A DNA stretch of 64,000 nt from Pontibacillus sp. HMF3514 (lineage in GTDB: Bacteria > Bacillota > Bacilli > Bacillales > BH030062). The translations under genes and the position numbers were made by a program. The notes under the pieces were generated by a model, which ran no database searches, was not told the origin of the DNA, and saw only the letters and a list, made by a program, of their open reading frames with translations. The number at the start of each line of letters is the position of its first letter. Within the stretch, counting starts at the first letter, position 1. Location: positions 3,720,001 through 3,784,000 of the forward strand of contig NZ_CP047393.1 of assembly GCF_009858175.1 (NCBI RefSeq), in the 5' to 3' direction. This document shows, in pieces, positions 3,421 through 44,519 of this stretch.

Positions 3421-4059
3421 TTACATTGAGAGTTCAAAACGCTCTTGATAATGGGGATGATACTGAAAATACAGTGGATATCCTCTTACATAACAATACT
3501 GAATAATGGGACCAGCAAAAGCTACCCCTAGAGCTGTCCCAATGCCAACAGGTCCTCCAATTAGAAGTGCTGTAGTCGATGTAGTTAGAGCAACCATCGT
3601 CTGGCTAACACGAAGGCTAAATTTTAATCGATGAGAAATCGCTAGGAATAACTGATCAACAGGTGCACGTGGCAATTGCGGAAGAATATAAATGGCAACA
3701 CCAAGTGCACTTAACCCTATCCCTATAACAAGAAAAGTAAATTGAACCATAAATGGAGCACTGGATAAGCTTAAATTATGAAGTACAATTTCCAACCAAA
3801 AGTCTAATATCAGACTTTCTAATACTAATGGAACAATCGCTTTCCATTCTGGCGTTTGCTTTACCAACCCTGCATTGATAAATATAAAAATTAATTGAAA
3901 TGCAGCATACCACATTCCAACAGTTAATCCGAACAAATCTGAAAGCCCCACAAACAGAGCTGTCCAAAAACCTGCCCCTAACGTCGCTTTAATTAACAGG
4001 GCAACACCAAAAAAGTTCACAAGCATACCTAAAAGATATACGGCAATACGATAGGACAT
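3421..4059 (-). CDS. YczE/YitT-like integral membrane protein
   Basis: 212 residues with about five hydrophobic helices (for example IAVYLLGMLVNFFGVALLIK at the N-terminus and FTFLVIGIGLSALGVAIYIL mid-protein). The early LGAGFWTALFVGLSDLFGLTVG pattern is typical of the YczE/YyaS/YitT group of Bacillus membrane proteins, whose biochemical function is unknown; B. subtilis YczE has been linked to surfactin production. ATG start with GAGGAATTCGTC upstream. Monocistronic, ending at a shared terminator. Confidence 0.75.
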   Translation of the reverse strand: MSYRIAVYLLGMLVNFFGVALLIKATLGAGFWTALFVGLSDLFGLTVGMWYAAFQLIFIFINAGLVKQTPEWKAIVPLVLESLILDFWLEIVLHNLSLSSAPFMVQFTFLVIGIGLSALGVAIYILPQLPRAPVDQLFLAISHRLKFSLRVSQTMVALTTSTTALLIGGPVGIGTALGVAFAGPIIQYCYVRGYPLYFQYHPHYQERFELSM

Positions 4060-4375
4060 GACGAATTCCTCGCTTTACTCTTGATTGATGAAAACGTTAA
4101 TGTCGTTTTTACCTCAGGCGATTTTAAAGCTATATCGTTCAGTGGTCAATAAAATTAATAAAAGTTTTACAATCACTTTTTTTCCTGTTCTCATCTGTAT
4201 TACAGGACTCTTCATTCCATTAATTGTCTTATATTTAAAAAGCCCTAACCGGAGAGAACCAGACCGTCCTTCTATGTTCGTGCCTATGTGTCACGGTCTT
4301 TAGGTGAAGATGGGTGTAGAAGGATCCGAAGAAATGACCTATTATATGAAAAGAAAAGTCGATACGCTTTCTAGA
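4060..4375. other. Intergenic stretch without a supported gene
   Basis: A 72-codon plus-strand open frame (4085-4303) with one hydrophobic segment is present but lacks a ribosome binding site and matches nothing I recognise. A following frame (about 4308-4383) reads into the hydrolase terminator. The left part should carry the promoter of the YczE-like gene. I do not call a gene here. Confidence 0.4.
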
Positions 4376-4402
4376 TTATACTGAAGCTAGAAACGTATCG
4401 AC
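4357..4402 (-). terminator. Terminator overlapping the hydrolase stop codon
   Basis: Arms GTCGATACG(C)TTTCTAG and CTAGAAACGTATCGAC pair with the hydrolase stop codon in the loop; the minus strand continues into TTTTCTTTTC. The plus strand also has a T run after the hairpin. Confidence 0.65.
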
Positions 4403-5218
4403 CTCTTTTTGATATAAAACTTGTTCTTCTAAGAATGGGTAATGGTTACTCTCATGAAATATGATTAGTTTAGAATTCTCTATAAGCGCATTCATTTCAA
4501 CAGAATATTCTACTGGACATTGGACATCATGTTTTCCGCACAAGATCAGAGTAGGTGTGGTAATATAGGATAACTTTTTCGTAATATCATACGTATGTAC
4601 CTCACGAGCAAAAAAGTTCATCCGTTCAACAGCCATGCCTTTTTGCACGTCAGCTGTGAAGTATTCATCATAATTCTCCGGTCTAAATAAGGATAACTTA
4701 GTTCTTTGTATCTTTATTTTATCTCGTTCATCCTTTGATAGATTAGGATCTTTTAGTTTTTCAATTAGCTCTTGCATATGTTGATACTGAGGGTGCTCTT
4801 CATTATATATGCACTGTGGGGAGTTAGAGAAATACTCTCGTGCAGCTGATCCAACGATGATTAAGTTTTTAAGTGAGGTAGAAGCGTACGCCCCATACAT
4901 AAGGCCAATCATGCCCCCTGTCGAATGACCTGCAAATCCCCAAGTTTTGTATCCTAATGCATGCCGAATGGATTCCAGATCAAACACCGTTTCCAGAAGA
5001 CTAAATTGATAGGCGTGAACTGCACGTTCTGACTCACCTGTCCCTCTCAAATTAACCAAGAATACTGTATTCGTTCTTGTAAAACAATCAGCAAAGAGAT
5101 CCCCACTCTCGTTATATTGGGCATATAAATGAGATACACACAAAGGTGGTCCTTCTCCTTTTACAAAAACCTCAAAAGTCCCACGTTCAGCTTCAACCAT
5201 AACCTTTTTCCACTTCAA
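4376..5218 (-). CDS. Alpha/beta-fold hydrolase (proline iminopeptidase-like)
   Basis: 280 residues from TTG 5218, which follows a full AAGGAGGTGATC site at the right spacing; a longer reading frame (to 5296) would overlap the upstream acetyltransferase. The nucleophile elbow is GFAGHSTGG (Ser at about residue 110), with an acid in LILCGKHDVQCPVEYS and the catalytic His in ESNHYPFLEE, so the triad is complete. NLRGTGESER resembles the strand-4 loop of proline iminopeptidase/epoxide hydrolase-type enzymes. Substrate unknown; cytoplasmic. It likely forms an operon with the acetyltransferase and serine hydrolase upstream. Confidence 0.83.
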   Translation of the reverse strand: MKWKKVMVEAERGTFEVFVKGEGPPLCVSHLYAQYNESGDLFADCFTRTNTVFLVNLRGTGESERAVHAYQFSLLETVFDLESIRHALGYKTWGFAGHSTGGMIGLMYGAYASTSLKNLIIVGSAAREYFSNSPQCIYNEEHPQYQHMQELIEKLKDPNLSKDERDKIKIQRTKLSLFRPENYDEYFTADVQKGMAVERMNFFAREVHTYDITKKLSYITTPTLILCGKHDVQCPVEYSVEMNALIENSKLIIFHESNHYPFLEEQVLYQKEVDTFLASV

Positions 5219-5234
5219 CTGATCACCTCCTTTT

Positions 5235-5630
5235 TCACTTCTTTGTACGATGTAAGACATACTGAGATGAACTACTTCGAAACCCCGTCTTTTCATAAAA
5301 TGGAATCAACGTTTCGTCACAAAATAAGCTAATAATATCGATATGCTGTAATTCATGTAGCAAACGTTCAATAATCTGACTCCCAATATCTTTGTGCCGA
5401 TATTGATGATGGACGACAACATCCTCAACATAGGCTCGATACTTTCCATCTGTTACAGCTCTAGCAAATCCAACTAATTCATCATCAATCCATGCACCTA
5501 CTGAGATCGTTCTCTCAAGTATTACTTGTATTTCGTCTTCTTTCCTCTCTGCCCACCAGCCAACATTTTGGTATAACTTCATTACACTTTTGGCGGGGAT
5601 GACCCTTTCATCATAACTATTGATCTCCAC
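5235..5630 (-). CDS. GNAT family N-acetyltransferase
   Basis: 131 residues. VEDVVVHHQYRHKDIGSQII (about 72-91) is the acetyl-CoA-binding motif A (usually Q/RxxGxG/A; here RHKDIG), and FYEKTGFRSSSSQYVL is the C-terminal strand. The GTG start at 5630 lies just after the stop of the upstream serine hydrolase gene, so translation is probably coupled. Acceptor unknown. Confidence 0.82.
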   Translation of the reverse strand: MEINSYDERVIPAKSVMKLYQNVGWWAERKEDEIQVILERTISVGAWIDDELVGFARAVTDGKYRAYVEDVVVHHQYRHKDIGSQIIERLLHELQHIDIISLFCDETLIPFYEKTGFRSSSSQYVLHRTKK

Positions 5631-7862: not shown

Positions 7863-8888
7863 GTGGAAGAATCTTTGATAGCAGTTACGATTCTATGGAG
7901 CTTTTTGTTTGTCTATTCCATGCTGGGATCACTTGATTTTGGATCAGGGTTCTGGGGAATGGTCTACGGAAAAAATCAAAACACAAACGCTTCTGCAATC
8001 GCCAATCGTTTTTTATCCCCAACTTGGGAAGTGACCAATGTGTTCCTTGTATTACTTGTTGTTGCTCTTGTGAGTTTCTTTCCATTTGCAACGTCTATGC
8101 TAGGAACACTTTTACTTGTGCCAATTGGATTAGGCTTGATTTTATTAACGATTCGTACGACCTTCATGGTTTTTGCCCATCATGTTCAGAAGTTTGGTGA
8201 CATGCTCAGGGTTACTTCAGGACTGACTGGATTATTGATACCTGCATTACTTGTGAGTATCTTACCCATCACCCTAGGGGGATTTATAGAAATGGAGAAC
8301 GGTTATCCAAAACTGATGTACGGAAAGCTATTGTCTAGCTCAACCACTTACATGCATATACTATTTGGCTTAAGTACGGAATTATTTTTATCTGCCTTGT
8401 TTTTAACAGATTATGCTCGTGAGGCAGGGGATCAGAGTGCGTTGAGAACATATCGTATGCACACGATTTGGCTCGGACCAGTAACCATGGTAATCGCAGT
8501 CTTAACTATATTCACTATGCCTAGTGAGGCCTCTTGGCTTGTGGATAATGTAGGGGAGAATTTATATGGATTCGGCATGTCCATCACGTTTTTCCTAATT
8601 GGTTACATCCTTCTATTTTTGAAAAAACCAAACGGAGAGGTCGGCTATACAAGGTGGGCAGTTATAGCTGTCATTCTTCAATACGGTTTTGCCATTTATG
8701 CATATGGCTCAGCACACTTACCCTATATAGTTTATCCCCACCTCACAATCAGTGATGGTTTTACAAATCCAGCAATGTTTTATCAACTATTGATTGCATA
8801 TATTATCGGCCTTTCCATACTTGTTCCGGCTTTTATTTTATTCTGGAGACTCTTCCTTAAAGATAAACGATATGTAAAGCAAGAGTAG
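7863..8888 (+). CDS. cydB: Cytochrome bd-type quinol oxidase, subunit II
   Basis: 341 residues beginning at GTG 7863 with GAGGAGTG upstream. About eight membrane helices. MLGSLDFGSGFWGMVYGKN near the start is the characteristic GxxDFGxGxW segment of subunit II, and ISDGFTNPAMFYQLL lies near the C-terminus. It pairs with subunit I to form the bd oxidase; no cydCD export genes or cydX-like small subunit follow. As with subunit I, a YthB-type assignment is possible. Confidence 0.92.
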   Translation: MEESLIAVTILWSFLFVYSMLGSLDFGSGFWGMVYGKNQNTNASAIANRFLSPTWEVTNVFLVLLVVALVSFFPFATSMLGTLLLVPIGLGLILLTIRTTFMVFAHHVQKFGDMLRVTSGLTGLLIPALLVSILPITLGGFIEMENGYPKLMYGKLLSSSTTYMHILFGLSTELFLSALFLTDYAREAGDQSALRTYRMHTIWLGPVTMVIAVLTIFTMPSEASWLVDNVGENLYGFGMSITFFLIGYILLFLKKPNGEVGYTRWAVIAVILQYGFAIYAYGSAHLPYIVYPHLTISDGFTNPAMFYQLLIAYIIGLSILVPAFILFWRLFLKDKRYVKQE

Positions 8889-8890
8889 AT

Positions 8891-8930
8891 AAAAAGTACA
8901 GGCTTTCTTATTAAGCAGTAAGCCTGTACT
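8891..8930 (-). terminator. Terminator of the 8929-9752 operon
   Basis: Arms AGTACAGGCTT / AAGCCTGTACT with a T-run on the minus strand; the right arm overlaps the stop codon of the minus-strand membrane gene. It could also stop the convergent oxidase operon, less efficiently because no T-run follows on plus. Confidence 0.75.
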
Positions 8931-9558
8931 AACGTTCACTTTCTTGCCAATGGGTAATAAATAAGTAAACTAATGCCCCAATAATCGGGATAAGCCCAAG
9001 TATAGACAAACGAGTACCTTGGCCATTTCGATGATAAGCATGGTGACTGATCCCCAATACAGAAAGTAGGGTAAGCATAAAAAAATCAAGGGTCATAACA
9101 TGAACAAAACGGGAATTGAAAAACGCCTCTTGATAAACTTCAACATTTCCATAAATAAGTCCGTAAATAACAAAAATCATAGTAAATATGAGTAGTGCAA
9201 AAGGGAAGAACGGGTTTTTAATCATTTCACCAATGCGATTGGAAGTTCTATTTTCTCTTTTACGTTGATCACGATGAAAAATGAAGTAGGGTAAAAGCGC
9301 AAATGCGCCAAATAAAAAGGAGAACATAACATAAGGCCAAGCTGAAATCGTTGATTGATCATTTTCTAACAACAGTAATCCAAATACCATCGGCCACACA
9401 CCTAGTAACAAGAAAACAGCCATGATAAGCGGTTCAGGTTCATCTAAGGAGAACAATGTTGCGACATAATCCAAATCACCTTCTATCGGTGTTAGAAATA
9501 AAGCGTAACAAATAAATAATAGCCAAAAGGCTAAAAGGATTGATTTAAGTTCTTTCAT
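8929..9558 (-). CDS. Polytopic membrane protein of unknown function
   Basis: 209 residues from ATG 9558 (GGAAGG upstream). About six hydrophobic helices and a basic cytoplasmic loop around HRDQRKRENRTSNR. I do not recognise the family. The start overlaps the stop of the preceding small gene by four bases (ATGA), so the two are translationally coupled. Confidence 0.7.
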   Translation of the reverse strand: MKELKSILLAFWLLFICYALFLTPIEGDLDYVATLFSLDEPEPLIMAVFLLLGVWPMVFGLLLLENDQSTISAWPYVMFSFLFGAFALLPYFIFHRDQRKRENRTSNRIGEMIKNPFFPFALLIFTMIFVIYGLIYGNVEVYQEAFFNSRFVHVMTLDFFMLTLLSVLGISHHAYHRNGQGTRLSILGLIPIIGALVYLFITHWQESER

Positions 9559-9752
9559 GAACGACCTTCCTCCCAATCCTTCTTATACCGCTCAACTTTT
9601 AATCTAAGATCCTCTATCATGCTTAACAAACGATCGAGATCAGATGGTTCAGCTTCCTCTCCATCCATGGATTCAATGACTTGCTGTAGCATTTGGATTC
9701 GGTTTTGAAGATAGTTCATTTGTGATGAACGATCATTTGTTGCCTTCCCCAT
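9555..9752 (-). CDS. SE1561-family small coiled-coil protein
   Basis: 65 residues, acidic, almost entirely helical (NYLQNRIQMLQQVIESMDGE then DLDRLLSMIEDLRLKVERYK), with heptad spacing suggesting a coiled coil. Resembles the SE1561 family of short Firmicute proteins of unknown function. GGGAGG ribosome binding site. First gene of a two-gene operon with the membrane protein. Confidence 0.75.
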   Translation of the reverse strand: MGKATNDRSSQMNYLQNRIQMLQQVIESMDGEEAEPSDLDRLLSMIEDLRLKVERYKKDWEEGRS

Positions 9753-9824
9753 TTTTATTCCTCCCCAATCTCTACGTTCTCTATAGTTTGTATTCCTATG
9801 ATATCAATAATAGTAGAGCAATTA

Positions 9825-9854
9825 AAGAAGACCTACCTATCGGTAAGTCTTCTT
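9825..9854 (-). terminator. Hairpin downstream of the LURP-like gene
   Basis: AAGAAGAC ... GTCTTCTT with inner TACC/GGTA pairing. Located about 120 bases past the stop at 9975, so it is probably its terminator, though the T-run is short. Confidence 0.5.
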
Positions 9855-9974
9855 GTTTGAGTAGAACCCATTAGTTATTAAATATTACAAATAAACCTTC
9901 TCTCCATCACAAACCTTTTCAAGCTGCTGATAAGGCATTGGTGTTTTTTTATTTTAATGAAAGTTCACCATAAT

Positions 9975-10481
9975 TTAAGTGGCGCCACCTGCTGCGTTTG
10001 AGGAGTTTCGCTTTTCAATCATATTCACACCCATAACGACAGCTATCAGTTCATCATCTGTTAGAACCTCAGTATGGTTGGTTAAGCAGAAAGCAGGTGA
10101 TTCAAAGAAACTATCTGTCCTATGAAACTCTCCTACCAAACTTTCTTGTTCATCATATACCTCATAATCTCTAGAGAACGCTTCAGATTCGATACGATAT
10201 ATCCCACGATCATATGCTTCATACTCATATTTTTTGGAGAAAAAAGCAAACCTTTGCACTAGTTCACCAATTTCCTGTTCCTGTTGATCTTGTACAAACC
10301 ACTTTCTTGAGAAGAATCGAAAACCACCTGACAATAGCACTTCTTCATTATTATTCAATATCATCACATCAGAACTGAATGCACCCTTTAAATCCAAAGT
10401 CCCTATCTGTTCTTTTTGATCATTATAAATCTCCGTTTTACCTGCAGAAAAGAAGTTGTCTGTAAAATAAATAGTAGACAT
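9975..10481 (-). CDS. LURP-one/tubby-like beta-barrel protein
   Basis: 168 residues from ATG 10481 (GGAGGGG upstream). Repeated beta-hairpin units (YNDQKEQIGTLDLKGAF; VQDQQEQEIGELVQRFAFFS; VYDEQESLVGEFHRTDSFF) suggest the tubby/LURP-one-related fold of phospholipid scramblase-like proteins. No membrane segment and no catalytic motif are visible. Function unknown. Confidence 0.65.
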   Translation of the reverse strand: MSTIYFTDNFFSAGKTEIYNDQKEQIGTLDLKGAFSSDVMILNNNEEVLLSGGFRFFSRKWFVQDQQEQEIGELVQRFAFFSKKYEYEAYDRGIYRIESEAFSRDYEVYDEQESLVGEFHRTDSFFESPAFCLTNHTEVLTDDELIAVVMGVNMIEKRNSSNAAGGAT

Positions 10482-16287: not shown

Positions 16288-16577
16288 ATCTTGAACATCG
16301 AAGCAAATATCTATGATGAGAAGAGTAAGATAGTTTGGAGTATTACAGAGAGTCAACATCCGCTGAAAGTTGACATACTGCACCTATTCGAATATCACCT
16401 CTGAGATGCTTGGCTGAACATACAGTAAGCCATGCCGGTTTTTCCGCCGTTACCATGGAATGTGTATGATGGTACACAGATAAAGCGCTATGACTAAATA
16501 TTCTAAAAATTTTGTCATAGAATTAAGGTGGTAACGCGAAACGCTCGTCCTTATTCAGTAAGGGGACGGGTTTTTTT
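16288..16577 (+). promoter_or_regulatory. T-box riboswitch, probably isoleucine-specific, controlling brnQ
   Basis: The leader ends in the T-box sequence AAGGTGGTAACGCG (16525-16538), which pairs with the 3' end of uncharged tRNA, followed by the terminator hairpin CGTCCTTA/TAAGGGGACG and TTTTTTT (about 16544-16577). The upstream stem I region has the AGAGTAAG element (16322-16329) and the specifier-loop-like GAATATCACC (16390-16399). The triplet ATC at 16394-16396 is an isoleucine codon, in keeping with the branched-chain amino acid carrier downstream. The AGGGTGG part carries one base change from the common consensus. Specifier choice is inference from alignment by eye. Confidence 0.85.
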
Positions 16578-16614: not shown

Positions 16615-17940
16615 ATGACTAGAAAAGATACATTCACGATCGGTTTTATGTTATTTGCACTATTTTTTGGAGCCGGAAACTTAATTTACCCTCCTGAACT
16701 AGGAATTCAAGCTGGAACATCCTTTTGGCCAGCCATTTTAGGATTTATTTTAACTGGAGTAGGATTACCCATTGTAGGCGTTGCAGCAATTGCTCTTGTA
16801 AGTGATGATGCCAAAGCTTTAGGAAGTCGCGTGCATCCTGTGTTTGGTCTTGTGTTTACTGCAGTTATTTATTTAGCTATTGGACCATTCTTTGGTATTC
16901 CACGTGCCGCTAACGTTGCGTATGAGATGGGGGTTATGCCCGTCATTGTATCAGGTGGAACTATGGCGCTTTTCTTATTTTCAGTCGTTTTTTTCGCTAT
17001 CGTATTATTTGTTAGTTTAAATCCATCTAAAATCGTCGACCGAATTGGACAATGGTTAACACCTGCATTATTAATAGCTATTGTAGCTTTATGTATTGCA
17101 AGCTTCTTTCAGTTTGATGCACCGTTACAATCACCAGAAACAACCTATACAACCGCTCCATTTTTCAAAGGATTTGTAAACGGCTATCTAACAATGGACG
17201 CCATCGCTGGGTTAGCTTTCGGAATAATTGTTGTTACTGCGTTGAAGGATCGAGGAGTAACAGAAAAGAAATCCGTCTTCAAACAAACGTTAAAGGTTGG
17301 TGCTGTCACAGCTACCGGTCTTGCTGTAGTCTACACTTCAATCGGTTGGATGGGTGCGAAATTAGCTACATTCGGTTCATTTGAAGGTGGAGCCGACATT
17401 CTTTCTGCAGGAGCAAGTCATTTATTTGGATCATTTGGCGCTATACTATTAGGCGTTATTGTTGCTCTAGCTTGTTTCACAACTTGCGTTGGACTAACAG
17501 TGGCATGCAGTCAGTTTTTCTCAAACACATTCTCTGGATTAAAATATTCTCATGTAGCAGTAGGAGTAACCATTGTGAGTTTTCTTGTAACTAACCTTGG
17601 ACTATCTCAAATCATCTCCTACTCTGTTCCTGTTCTATACTTTATTTATCCGTTAGCGATCGTTCTCATCGTTTTATCCTTTTTCCACAACGCTTTCAAT
17701 GGATCAAGCTATGTGTATCGCGGTGCACTCCTACTTACAAGCTTCTTTAGCTTATATAGTGGACTCAGCGCAGCTAAGCTCACTTGGGCACCTCTTCAAA
17801 GTGCATTATCCATCTTCCCTCTATTTGAAGAAGGTCTTGGATGGATCGTACCAGCCCTTATAGGTGCAGGATTAGGATATTTATTAGATCGCTCCCGCAG
17901 GAACTCTAAGTATGTAGCTGCTACAAAGAATGCATCATAA
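16615..17940 (+). CDS. brnQ: Branched-chain amino acid:cation symporter, BrnQ family
   Basis: 441 residues with about twelve membrane helices. The N-terminus TIGFMLFALFFGAGNLIYPP is the signature of LIVCS-family carriers that import leucine, isoleucine and valine with Na+ or H+. A conserved GFVNGYLTMDAIAGLAFGI lies mid-protein. Starts at ATG 16615 with AAAGGGTTAGGG upstream, 37 bases past a T-box terminator, so expression should rise when the cognate tRNA (probably Ile) is uncharged. Confidence 0.93.
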   Translation: MTRKDTFTIGFMLFALFFGAGNLIYPPELGIQAGTSFWPAILGFILTGVGLPIVGVAAIALVSDDAKALGSRVHPVFGLVFTAVIYLAIGPFFGIPRAANVAYEMGVMPVIVSGGTMALFLFSVVFFAIVLFVSLNPSKIVDRIGQWLTPALLIAIVALCIASFFQFDAPLQSPETTYTTAPFFKGFVNGYLTMDAIAGLAFGIIVVTALKDRGVTEKKSVFKQTLKVGAVTATGLAVVYTSIGWMGAKLATFGSFEGGADILSAGASHLFGSFGAILLGVIVALACFTTCVGLTVACSQFFSNTFSGLKYSHVAVGVTIVSFLVTNLGLSQIISYSVPVLYFIYPLAIVLIVLSFFHNAFNGSSYVYRGALLLTSFFSLYSGLSAAKLTWAPLQSALSIFPLFEEGLGWIVPALIGAGLGYLLDRSRRNSKYVAATKNAS

Positions 17941-21347: not shown

Positions 21348-21469
21348 GATTAGACACTCCTTTCTATGATGTAGCTCCATAATCACGTTTCCCGATTTGG
21401 GATTCTATTACACATTGGACGTTATTCAGCTTAATGGCAAGATTGTTGAAGACTTGAAACTGAGAGGAG

Positions 21470-21627
21470 TCCGTTGCTGTTGAGTAATTTGTTCCGGTCA
21501 GTGAAACGGCAAGCCTGTTGTGGAAGAAAAGCCGAGCCTCCTCGTTCCTGCGGGGTCTCGTCTTCCCTTTGTTTCACGACAGTTTGCCGTTTCCTTCCCT
21601 CCACGCGATTATGGAGACTAACGGACC
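21470..21627 (-). repeat. Repeat element A1 (158 bp), minus orientation
   Basis: Bounded by TCCGTTGC and AACGGACC, so it has short terminal inverted repeats. The inside carries a GC-rich core whose reverse complement includes GAGACCCCGCAGGAACGAGG. It is the inverted relative of A2 and matches B1 (43960-44126) in the same orientation. No coding signal. Confidence 0.8.
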
Positions 21628-21701
21628 ATAATTTAGCTTCTCCACGTCATATGGATTGGAAATTATATTCAGAGAAGTTGCTCCTCTCCCTGAACTACGG
21701 C

Positions 21702-21871
21702 GGTTCCGTTATTCACCATTCGGCTAAGGAGGGCTGTGGAACGGGTTGACTCCTCCGGTAAAAAGGGCGAGCGAGATCCCACAGGAACGAAATGACGAGG
21801 AAGCTCGATCGGTCTTCCGGGGAAAGCAACCCGTTCCACAGACCACCGATCTGCACAAAAGCAACGGAACC
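21702..21871 (+). repeat. Repeat element A2 (170 bp), plus orientation
   Basis: Bounded by GGTTCCGTT and AACGGAACC. Core includes GACTCCTCCGG, GGCGAGCGAGATCCCACAGG and GACGAGGAAGCTCGATCGG, then GGGGAAAGCAACCCGTTCC. Aligns along its length with B2 (44279-44450), and the similarity continues about 50 bases past the right end. Confidence 0.8.
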
Positions 21872-21925
21872 ATACGCACATTATCTCTATTCCAAGCCTT
21901 CCACATAAGGGGGCTAATATGGCAT

Positions 21926-21970
21926 AAAAAAGCCTCTTCCCTACTCACTTGGAGCAGGAAAGAGGCTTTT
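21926..21970 (-). terminator. Terminator of the BCCT gene
   Basis: AAAAAGCCTCTTCC / GGAAAGAGGCTTTT arms; T-run on the minus strand, directly after the stop. Confidence 0.88.
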
Positions 21971-21973
21971 CAC

Positions 21974-23509
21974 TTACTTTTTATTTTGTTCAAGAAGTAA
22001 TTCTTTAGATACTCTTGGTGCTAACCATATGACTGGTAGCAATAGGATTGAAACGGGAACTGCTGTAATCACAATGAAGGACTGAAGGGCGTTTACACTT
22101 CCTTCTCCGATGTAAAGAAGAATTGAAGCTACCGCACCCATTAGGACAGACCAGAAGATACGTAATGAAATTTTCGGATTACCCTCACCAGATACCGCCA
22201 TTGCAATTGTGTACGACATAGAATCTCCAGTCGTAATTACAAAGATAATCGTTAGCAATAGGAATAGGGGCGAGATAATGCTCGCTAATGGTAACTGTTC
22301 GGTGATTGCAATCATCGCAGCTGGCATTCCACCATTTTCAAGCTGAGTAGATACAGAACCTGCTTCTTGAAGTTCATAGAAGATTCCTGAGCCACCAACA
22401 ACTGTGAACCAGAACGTTGTAACGATTGGAGCAATGACAGCAATAGCTACAATGATCTGGCGGATGGAACGCCCTCTTGAGATACGACTTACCAGTATAG
22501 CCATCATTGGACCATAACCAATAAACCAACCCCAGAAGAATACTGTCCAAAAGCCCAACCAGCTTTTATCAGCTCGGAAGGTACTCATTTGAATAAAGTT
22601 GTCCACGTAGAATCCAAAAGAAGAGATAAATGAATTCAAAATAAATCCACCTGGACCAAACACAAGGACAAACAGGATAAGACCAATCGCTAAGCGAACG
22701 TTAAAGTTACTTAACCACTGAATACCTTTATGAAGTCCTGTTACTGCTGAGATTGTTGAAACCACAACAAGACCAATAATAATCGCTAATCTTGTAATTA
22801 ATACATCCGGAATTCCAAATAAAGCTTGCAAACCATAAGCAGCTTGTAAGCCCAAGAAACCAATTGGACCAATCGTACCAGCCGCTACTGCAATAATAGC
22901 GAACGCATCTACAATGGTGCCAAGGAAACTTTTACGAAGCTTTTCACCAAAGATCGGATATAACAATGTACGTGGCTTTAGAGGCATACCTCTATGATAG
23001 TGTCCATACATCATCACGACTGCACTTAACGTACCTAGGATTGCCCAAGCTAAAAATCCCCAGTGCATATAACTTTGTGCTAACGCAGGCATAAGAGCGC
23101 CTGCGGTTTCAGCTTCTACACCGCTATTCATAGGAGGTACTGTTAAAAAGTGATACATTGGTTCAGCTGCTGCCCAAAATACACCGCCTCCAGCTAGAAG
23201 GGTAGCCATAATTATGGACAACCATTTAAATGTACTCATTTCAGGTTTTTCTAAATAACCAAGTCTTACTTTTCCATATTTTGAAAACGCTACATACAGT
23301 GCAACAAAGAAGTTCGCAAGCATGAGAACTTGCCAAAATGCTCCAAAGTATTTCGAAGACCAAGCAAATCCTTTGTTCACCATTTCTTCAACAAATTGCA
23401 TATCAATGAGGGATGCAATGACAAACGCTACTAACAATCCACCGCTTATTCCAAACAGAGGCCAATCAATGTTAGAGGTTTGTTTATTATTCTGTGTCAT
23501 TTTAGTCAT
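21974..23509 (-). CDS. BCCT family transporter with altered aromatic substrate box
   Basis: 511 residues from ATG 23509 (AAAAGGAGC upstream; the longer open frame to 23602 has no site). Twelve membrane helices. BCCT carriers import betaine, choline, carnitine or related compounds, usually with Na+. The region that is WAWWISWSP in BetP-type betaine carriers reads WGWFIGYGP here, so two of the three box tryptophans are Phe and Tyr. RISRGRSIRQ follows as usual. Because of this the substrate may differ from glycine betaine. Likely osmotic or nutrient uptake. Confidence 0.9.
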   Translation of the reverse strand: MTKMTQNNKQTSNIDWPLFGISGGLLVAFVIASLIDMQFVEEMVNKGFAWSSKYFGAFWQVLMLANFFVALYVAFSKYGKVRLGYLEKPEMSTFKWLSIIMATLLAGGGVFWAAAEPMYHFLTVPPMNSGVEAETAGALMPALAQSYMHWGFLAWAILGTLSAVVMMYGHYHRGMPLKPRTLLYPIFGEKLRKSFLGTIVDAFAIIAVAAGTIGPIGFLGLQAAYGLQALFGIPDVLITRLAIIIGLVVVSTISAVTGLHKGIQWLSNFNVRLAIGLILFVLVFGPGGFILNSFISSFGFYVDNFIQMSTFRADKSWLGFWTVFFWGWFIGYGPMMAILVSRISRGRSIRQIIVAIAVIAPIVTTFWFTVVGGSGIFYELQEAGSVSTQLENGGMPAAMIAITEQLPLASIISPLFLLLTIIFVITTGDSMSYTIAMAVSGEGNPKISLRIFWSVLMGAVASILLYIGEGSVNALQSFIVITAVPVSILLLPVIWLAPRVSKELLLEQNKK

Positions 23510-31913: not shown

Positions 31914-32059
31914 AACGAGCACCTCTTTTTTAATTTCTTCAAGTGTACCAAAGTATGGTACACGAGAGATAAATATTGTGTGCTCGGTATAAGGGGAAGA
32001 AATTGAAATCAAGGCTTCCGATAAAGGGGGCTTTAATTGAAGAAGAGGTTCAACCTAAA

Positions 32060-43855: not shown

Positions 43856-43959
43856 AATGTAATTATGTATCTGTTAATAAATATTGATATTGATAACATA
43901 ACACGACTTTATTCAGTTAAATGGCAGTAATATGGAATAACTGTTTTAGTGAGAGGGTG

Positions 43960-44126
43960 GGTCCGTTGCGTTAAAAAGAGGAAGGGGTCAGTGAAACGGT
44001 TCGCGTCCTGTGGACTCACGGTCGAGCCTCCTCGTTCGTTCCACTCTCTGCGGGGTCTCGCCCGATCGTAATACCACTGGAGTCTCACCGTTTCCTTCCC
44101 CCTATTGTAGTGAAGGTTAACGGACC
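43960..44126 (-). repeat. Repeat element B1 (167 bp), minus orientation
   Basis: Bounded by GGTCCGTTGC and AACGGACC. Reverse complement carries GAGACCCCGCAGAGAG and GAACGAGGAGGCTCGACCG. Same orientation as A1; the left flank (TTATTCAGTTAAATGGCA) also resembles that of A1 (TTATTCAGCTTAATGGCA). Confidence 0.8.
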
Positions 44127-44278
44127 CAGTTCTGATTAGCTGAATTTCCTTATTGCCATAAAAGTGTTCGATGAATCTCATAGATAACGCGAACAAGCTT
44201 TATATCAGGTGTTTGAGTCATTTTCTGTGTCATTATAGTAAAGCTTTACACAGGAATCAGAAACACTTATTACGCTGC

Positions 44279-44450
44279 GGTTCCGTTAATCTCCATACGG
44301 CTAAGGTGGGCTGGGAAACGGGCTGACTCCTCCGGAAAAACGGGCGAGCGAGACCCCGCAGGGAACGTAGTGACTGAGGAGGCTCGATCGTTCGTCCGGG
44401 GAAAGCAGCCCGTTTCCCAGCCCGCCGCACTCCATATAAGCAACGGAACC
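44279..44450 (+). repeat. Repeat element B2 (172 bp), plus orientation
   Basis: Bounded by GGTTCCGTT and AACGGAACC. Core has GACTCCTCCGG, GCGAGCGAGACCCCGCAGGG, GAGGAGGCTCGATCG and GGGGAAAGCAGCCCG. Inverted relative to B1. Similarity to A2 continues past the right end through CATTATCTCGATTCCAAG to AAGGGGGCT. Confidence 0.8.
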
Positions 44451-44519
44451 ATACACACATTATCTCGATTCCAAGTCTTCCAGATAAGGGGGCTTGAATG
44501 GACATGAATGTTAATAAAA

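Follow-up and report, generated by a model that had tools for sequence, protein, structure and literature searches.

Element A, a pair of divergent hairpins in a 64,000-nt stretch of the Pontibacillus sp. HMF3514 chromosome (the window; genome G000), belongs to a family of elements that share sockets and orientation between HMF3514 and its sister species Pontibacillus marinus DSM 16465 (G003), with flanks about 90% identical and interiors that have been re-dealt. The family has a defined architecture, covarying hairpins, a fixed orientation of paired hairpins, an order-wide range and a place beside gene 3' ends. We put the probability at roughly 0.5 that element A is the occupant of one of many inherited sockets whose cassettes are exchanged by recombination. 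Such a socket would be a pair of inverted, related and unequal ends, alpha (TTATTCagttatATGGCAG) and beta (TTATTCcattAAAGCCCCCTtatcTGGAAGACTTGgaaTCGAGATAA), just downstream of the 3' end of a gene, and the cassette between them would usually comprise two divergent hairpins of ~165 nt. The interior would move as a unit, with exchange points in or next to the end cores GGCAG and AGCCCCC, and the arms of the hairpins may be recognised during exchange as folded DNA, either cruciform or single strand.

The original prediction placed two mutually inverted elements at 21470-21871 of the window, and both are present, as covariance-model matches at 21467-21628 (minus) and 21702-21871 (plus). That span suits the modules and falls short at its limits, because each side bears conserved end sequence: element A extends both ways, to 21422 and about 21927.

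21422-21927, about 506 bp: whole element A, in the order alpha end, A1 (minus), spacer, A2 (plus), beta end (12-copy alignment)
21422..21440, plus: alpha end, outer part, TTATTCAGCTTAATGGCAA; goes with the chromosomal site (12-copy alignment)
21441..21466, plus: alpha end, inner part, of the GATTGTTGAAGACTTGAAACTGAGAGG kind; part of the putatively exchanged interior
21467..21628, minus: hairpin module A1, 162 nt (covariance model, 103.4 bits)
21629..21701, no strand: spacer between the divergent modules A1 and A2 (12-copy alignment)
21702..21871, plus: hairpin module A2, 170 nt (covariance model, 152.3 bits)
21872..21927, plus: beta end, its reverse complement containing TAGCCCCCTTATGTGGAAGGCTTGGAATAGAGATAAT; the outer part, from about 21908, goes with the site

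The related termini that had been described are there (GTCCGTT...AACGGAC in A1, GGTTCCGTT...AACGGAACC in A2), as are the core motifs, which read GAGACCCCGCAGG and GAGGAGGCTCG on the minus strand of A1 and, slightly altered, GAGATCCCACAGG and GAGGAAGCTCG in A2. The right flank held in common with a second pair of the window, pair B, measures 46 nt at 91% identity. Pair B is an element of the same kind, with the ends of the first arrangement and modules of its own.

43909..43927, plus: alpha end of pair B (copy alignment)
43959..44127, minus: module B1 (covariance model, 144.3 bits)
44279..44450, plus: module B2 (covariance model, 173.2 bits)
44451..44506, plus: beta end of pair B, outer limit approximate (copy alignment)

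The first arrangement, alpha-A1-A2-beta, was defined by an alignment of 12 copies, and a second, in which the module order is reversed relative to the ends, by 17 copies aligned with pair B. In both alignments the ends are conserved, similarity drops sharply beyond them, and the interiors are unlike. Modules are roughly 160-178 nt long with CCGTT/AACGG ends. The spacer of element A is shorter than in 10 of the 11 other aligned copies, that of copy L026 being short as well; some copies carry a short extra structure within one module, and a module variant with two small hairpins around ACGACGTGGGG / CCACANGATGTGG was found in two families (G000 near 1708707, 1675319 and 2809423; G175, L244 at 10938). 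Elsewhere in the window there is a lone beta-like end with no modules (32005-32044, E 2e-4), as well as a T-box leader (16304-16555; Rfam RF00230, 130 bits) directly upstream of a 441-aa membrane-protein-like ORF (16615-17940). In genomes G001, G004 and G005 (L106, L105 and L108), the gap orthologous to element A holds degenerate TTGAGCCG(TT) direct repeats instead.

The modules are covarying hairpins. Folded as RNA, A1 gave z-scores of -5.2 and -4.1 on its two strands and A2 gave -4.9 and -5.6, with -6.4 for A2 as DNA, and in none of these five folds did any of 200 shuffles fold equally well. For covariation, 30 diverse modules were aligned, and the structure was named from their 30 single folds, which favours pairs seen in single folds, rather than from the automatic alignment structure, which paired the core alone. 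Two-sided changes occur in 31 of the 52 base pairs of the named structure, in which pairs 81-111 and 82-110 should, by covariation, probably be 81-110. The covariation score of 0.309 exceeds the 0.137 of shuffles (0 of 500 reached it; related sequences can beat shuffles without structure) and the 0.04-0.10 of slid versions of the structure. The named structure, whose derivation from the same 30 sequences favours its fit, paired 86.7% of cells against 36-53% when slid. It also had two-sided changes in 172 cells, where the slid versions had 20-51, a difference hard to obtain from relatedness alone. An RNA hairpin had been suggested among the possible roles: the fold stands, borne out by compensatory changes, and folding gives no clear preference for a strand by which one RNA could be picked out. 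Of the 30 modules, 22 fold somewhat better on the strand opposite to the modelled one, and the modelled strand carries 79 G-T cells against 41 A-C cells, 20 of the latter in one pair. No Rfam family reaches its gathering score on element A; a permissive search (E up to 5) gave seven weak matches, all under their gathering scores, of which one, to a microRNA model (E 0.65), lay over A1.

Copies are numerous and dispersed. A BLAST search with the pair found at least 84 matches in its own genome, with 40 of 132 candidate places scored, and with related genomes also carrying copies, neither a lack of further copies nor a single local duplication accounts for the pair. HMF3514 has 14 groups of modules in 200 kb at 2.78-2.98 Mb, 13 in 200 kb at 1.618-1.818 Mb, 2 in the 64-kb window and none in 140 kb of gene arrays, together 29 groups in 604 kb, which extrapolates to about 190 per genome. 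We estimate the copy number at 150-250 per genome, a range given because the count includes a few lone or partial modules and the stretches were not drawn at random.

Orientation within groups is uniform: in six long stretches, all 48 groups with modules on both strands are divergent, the minus module first and the plus module second. They comprise 2 in the window, 13 and 10 in the 2.78-2.98 and 1.618-1.818 Mb stretches of G000, 9 and 4 on contigs C5 and C7 of P. marinus, and 10 in G175, and three of the G000 groups at 1.618-1.818 Mb and one of the C5 groups contain a module split into two matches. With a simple gene caller, the 42 classed G000 elements (4 loci common to two sets counted once, and 14 of the 44 loci of one set unclassed) fall into 27 tandem, 15 convergent and 0 divergent gaps, against a background of 154 tandem, 33 convergent and 34 divergent among 221 neighbouring gene pairs, and a gene 3' end adjoins the element in 42 of 42 cases. 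The median gap is 64 bp to the neighbouring stop codon (41 sides) and 156 bp to a start codon (19 sides), taken from 50 bp outside the outer modules. By eye, elements A and B lie past recognisable terminators.

A strong covarying fold that adjoins a gene 3' end in all 42 classed cases could also be expected of a structured RNA with a cellular role, such as a terminator, a 3'-end or RNase III substrate or a small RNA, spread by duplication. We regard this as unlikely, since the 30 modules show no clear strand preference in their folds, elements A and B sit, by eye, beyond recognisable terminators, and the contents differ at orthologous genes.

The family extends through the order. With strict filters, and with up to 13 candidates scored per genome, the module covariance model matched 150 of 199 genomes of the order, its own included, in 76 of 97 genera. 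In a phylum-wide draw of 149 genomes it matched its own genome alone, with 0 of 147 matched outside the order and no match in the one other genome of the same order (order placement taken from the best 21 rows of a genome list sorted by kinship). G175, from another family, has 11 groups in 200 kb, of which 10 are pairs, and their ends are of the same kind; G108 has 2 pairs in 200 kb, and G014 gave 2 single matches in 400 kb with the Pontibacillus profile. Single modules are common among 29 loci of the order search, which also include a locus with three consecutive modules on one strand and another with two modules on the same strand 0.8 kb apart. Plasmid and phage collections held no match to element A, and an array site of the kind described below, used by itself, matched two plasmid records.

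Sockets were compared between G000 and P. marinus, the sole species pair compared and, on the P. marinus side, a draft in many contigs; a second pair, G175 and G014, with matches 66-80% identical, was too diverged to align sites. Contig C5 of P. marinus runs collinear with G000 1.618-1.818 Mb (blocks 88.9-95.4% identical), and a part of C7 does so with about 2.88-2.98 Mb (89.9-93.7%). The first stretch has 13 groups in G000; at their places P. marinus carries modules in nine cases, other content between such ends in three and nothing in one. Of seven sites mapped on both sides or one in the second, six are occupied and one is empty. Twelve intact shared sites, two of them outside the collinear stretches (flanks 87-93%), have flanks about 87-95% identical. 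When the P. marinus copy at each of these sites was compared with 38 G000 elements, ranked by global identity, the ortholog was never the best match (12 of 12 sites; ranks 6, 8, 10, 11, 16, 18, 26, 27, 28, 30, 33 and 37). Its mean rank, 20.8 of 38, is as for random draws, and similar elements elsewhere in the other genome reach an identity of 0.92. A cruder earlier score agrees, with the ortholog first at 0 of 9 sites. The alpha side is the same in both species at 15 of 15 sites, and the beta side at all 12 anchored in both. The 12-site set omits sites cut by P. marinus contig ends or gaps (A, B, 1459, 1471, 1618, 2932 and 2977), empty there (1636 and 2969), holding other content there (1628, 1659 and 1741) or partial in G000 (1731 and 1756), and the G000 pool includes elements with no mapped partner (2918, 2892, 2866, 2848 and 2830). 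These results suggest that the place of a socket is inherited and that its hairpin contents have been swapped.

The G000 sites empty in P. marinus (1636003 and 2969815) have flanks there that also differ by tens of nucleotides, and no clean empty socket was seen among the sites compared. Two apparent breaks of synteny fall within elements; one spans an N gap, and they may therefore be effects of assembly. A second repeat family (GTCCAGCTCCAGCGCC...) was noticed at a site where P. marinus is empty (L144 15660-16080, with P. marinus C44:1239-1265) and at another where G000 is (P. marinus C7 about 22594-22950, G000 near 2954430), both near terminator-like hairpins. At three P. marinus sockets, 21-bp tandem units lie within the ends.

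P. marinus C5 9880-10486: 21-bp tandem units, interrupted by N runs
P. marinus C5 40150-41023: 32.7 copies of the 21-bp unit, ungapped
P. marinus C5 123502-124182: 21-bp tandem units, interrupted by N runs

Since many P. marinus contigs end within elements and one element of C7 contains an N gap, it might be asked whether misassembly of repeats in the draft has created false contents. This seems very improbable: any false joins would have had to be made across a shared stretch of, by eye, about 20 nt, and the words usual in assembly are longer than that; all 12 compared sites are affected; and the tandem array at C5 40150-41023 is read without a gap between intact ends.

Where along the ends the change sets in was followed at 15 sites by ungapped comparison outward and inward from the end cores, orthologous against other sites, with 5000 permutations. 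The outer 14 nt agree better between orthologous sites on both sides (alpha, 0.80 vs 0.58; beta, 0.76 vs 0.63; 0 of 5000 permutations in each case). Just inside the cores the site signal is weak, 0.73 vs 0.65 at 5-15 nt of alpha (221 of 5000) and 0.66 vs 0.61 at 7-17 nt of beta (399 of 5000), and the exchange point is therefore not base-sharp. Deeper inside there is none (alpha, 0.53 vs 0.51, 1856 of 5000; beta, 0.66 vs 0.65, 1709 of 5000). Beyond the ends, ungapped identity drops to 0.40-0.53 vs about 0.3, in our opinion because small indels break the register, and is still above nearly all permutations. The alpha core is unlike the beta core. Thus, what stays with the place is the outer portion of each end, and the interior is independent of it.

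The main and serious rival, and a real possibility that accounts for much of the data, is ectopic gene conversion: dispersed copies of an old MITE-like family would overwrite one another RecA-dependently, and the outermost end would be kept where homology stops. It would explain why sites are fixed, why orientation is kept and why the outer ends are specific to their sites; also in keeping with it are the two apparent synteny breaks within elements (one of them across the N gap) and the chimeric-looking copies L024 and L026, whose first modules are 95-96% and second modules 82% identical to element A. However, most of the swaps join unlike types of interior that share, by eye, about 20 nt at alpha, and such a length is short for RecA.

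Sites outside the hairpin elements bear on the same choice. Small genes alternate with beta-like sites at P. marinus C7 176.6-180 kb (L190), a region reached by scanning for ends that have no modules nearby. A pattern search gave 84 matches in G000 and 104 in P. marinus, many of the matches being beta ends of hairpin elements; two congeners had 26 and 10, two more genomes 1 apiece and 25 of the 31 none, and a reversed-pattern control gave 0. Four arrays in G000 contain 56 strong sites (13 minus and 1 plus; 14 minus; 12 plus; 15 plus and 1 minus), nearly all on one strand within each array, and their small genes mostly read opposite to the sites, some against the trend. Two arrays have an RHS protein at their end, of 2364 and 2367 aa, and upstream of each of these two RHS genes is a GGGCCA (alpha-like) site in inverted orientation. 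The one integrase seen, of phage type, adjoins array 1. Two array sites carry an inserted IS110 transposase gene (405 aa), in both cases immediately behind GCGCCC(T); Pfam calls both copies IS110, and NCBIfam calls one of them RNA-guided IS110.

G000 C1 320-350 kb, 1109-1124 kb, 2350-2383 kb and 2428-2459 kb: arrays of GCGCCC-core sites (L304-L310)
G000 2348735-2350373 (L307 around 3700-5390): IS110 insertion
G000 2433348-2434987 (L309 around 8350-9990): IS110 insertion

When the halves of 94 sites were compared (53 from G000 and 41 from P. marinus; one G007 stretch gave 0), 17 pairs, the same cassette being counted more than once among them, were alike in their middle and right parts and different on the left, several of them identical from the core rightwards. 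The left part alone was alike in 155 pairs, which are not 155 events because the cut was loose (84%) and the left halves form few families. A further 6 pairs shared left and middle, 20 the right alone and 15 all three parts, and no pair among the 94 sites was alike on left and right with a different middle. Among the 14 of the 20 right-only pairs that were listed, most involve one right-hand family, and at least one looks like a switch within the right block. The pattern of the 17 pairs is what exchange at the 6-bp GCGCCC core would leave. This position of the switch, mostly at the 6-bp core and not in the longer conserved GAAGACTTGAATTCGAGATA block, also speaks against gene conversion.

Since these beta-like sites reshuffle their halves at an equivalent GCGCCC core, the alpha and beta ends of the hairpin elements are, in our view, recombination half-sites; the hairpin pairs would then take part in one exchange system with the gene arrays, as cassettes that carry no gene. 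No recombinase was linked to the alpha and beta ends in this analysis. A wider and more speculative proposal, which we hold to be doubtful as a whole, is a system of cassette exchange in Bacillaceae, in which fixed sockets, mostly after gene ends and each made of two inverted half-sites, trade their interiors at a short core. The cargo would be a folded-DNA hairpin pair, a 21-bp tandem array or an RHS-linked array of small genes; the hairpins would serve exchange as attC does, and a recombinase, possibly of the RNA-guided IS110 type, would act at the GCGCCC/AGCCCCC core.

The hairpin family would be a very abundant non-coding feature, order-wide, to which no Rfam family was matched, and in it the place of a repeat and its content, usually taken together, would be separate. 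The contents of repeats in Bacillaceae may be poor markers of vertical descent. If the socket reading is true, a Gram-positive counterpart of integrons becomes testable, hairpin repeats would be linked with the way in which small-gene arrays next to RHS genes diversify, and natural landing sites would be indicated.

Compared with known systems, the element is filed as none of REPIN, MITE or integron cassette. REPINs and BIMEs are paired inverted REP hairpins in many intergenic copies, mosaic and near gene 3' ends, and REP sequences carry a GTAG tag. The likeness is considerable, with many intergenic copies, hairpins paired and inverted (48 of 48 groups), a mosaic make-up and a place near gene 3' ends; the differences are the ~165-nt hairpins, the defined outer ends and the shared sites with swapped content. 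If the pairs were mobilised, as REPINs are, by a REP-associated tyrosine transposase (RAYT), a candidate would be at hand, as a Y1_Tnp gene is present in 9 of 9 genomes of the family and NCBIfam classes the single one of G000 as a RAYT (NF047646, 83.5 bits, cut-off 80).

G000 C1 3433676-3434209 (L047 1677-2210), minus: RAYT gene

This explanation is nevertheless improbable. No module flanks the Y1_Tnp loci examined (L009, L047, L110-L140), where the Pontibacillus profile may miss distant modules, the number of Y1_Tnp genes does not track that of the repeats, and a RAYT would leave exchange at alpha and beta unexplained. REPs are short, 20-40 nt according to PMC3733652, as against roughly 160-178 nt with CCGTT/AACGG ends for the modules.

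A non-autonomous mobile element had been another of the roles first proposed. Many copies, defined ends and an interior that changes between sites agree with it; against it, no clean insertion with target duplication was found, and most of the sites compared are common to P. marinus. No target-site duplication was seen by eye in 12 aligned copies, both sites empty in P. marinus being unclean, and no parent transposon with the same ends was noticed in the 844 kb scanned, the IS110 copies lying inside array sites. MITEs such as bcr1, RUP and ERIC are described as non-coding and multi-copy, with imperfect terminal inverted repeats (PMC3733652 and, for bcr1, PMC2267715). The element resembles them in each respect, its terminal repeats being imperfect (TTATTC at both ends, and a GAAGACT block at beta and one kind of alpha), and differs in its unequal ends and exchanged interior. 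It is not filed as REPIN or MITE because short hairpins and a flanking RAYT gene are missing and target duplications were not recognised. Bhal-1 and Bhal-2 of Bacillus halodurans are likewise repeated stem-loops in a Bacillaceae genome, of 74-76 bp by their description in PMC2267715, which is the basis of this comparison. In papers, mostly open ones, on RAYT/REPIN, on intergenic, interspersed and palindromic repeats and on MITEs, no recognisable description of the element was found, nor was it recognised in a similarly composed literature on the core motifs, IS110, WapA/RHS cassettes and Firmicutes integrons.

It is the small-gene arrays, rather than element A, that invite comparison with integrons, whose cassettes line up small genes that have one related site apiece, with half-sites reshuffled at a short core, and whose attC sites act folded. 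The likeness lies in codirectional gene arrays with a site to each gene and in the reshuffling of half-sites; the differences are the Bacillaceae host and the use of hairpin pairs as cassettes. PMC11187229 describes members of the IS1111 type whose targets are attC sites and REPs, and their insertion at attC is comparable to that of IS110 in the array sites described here.
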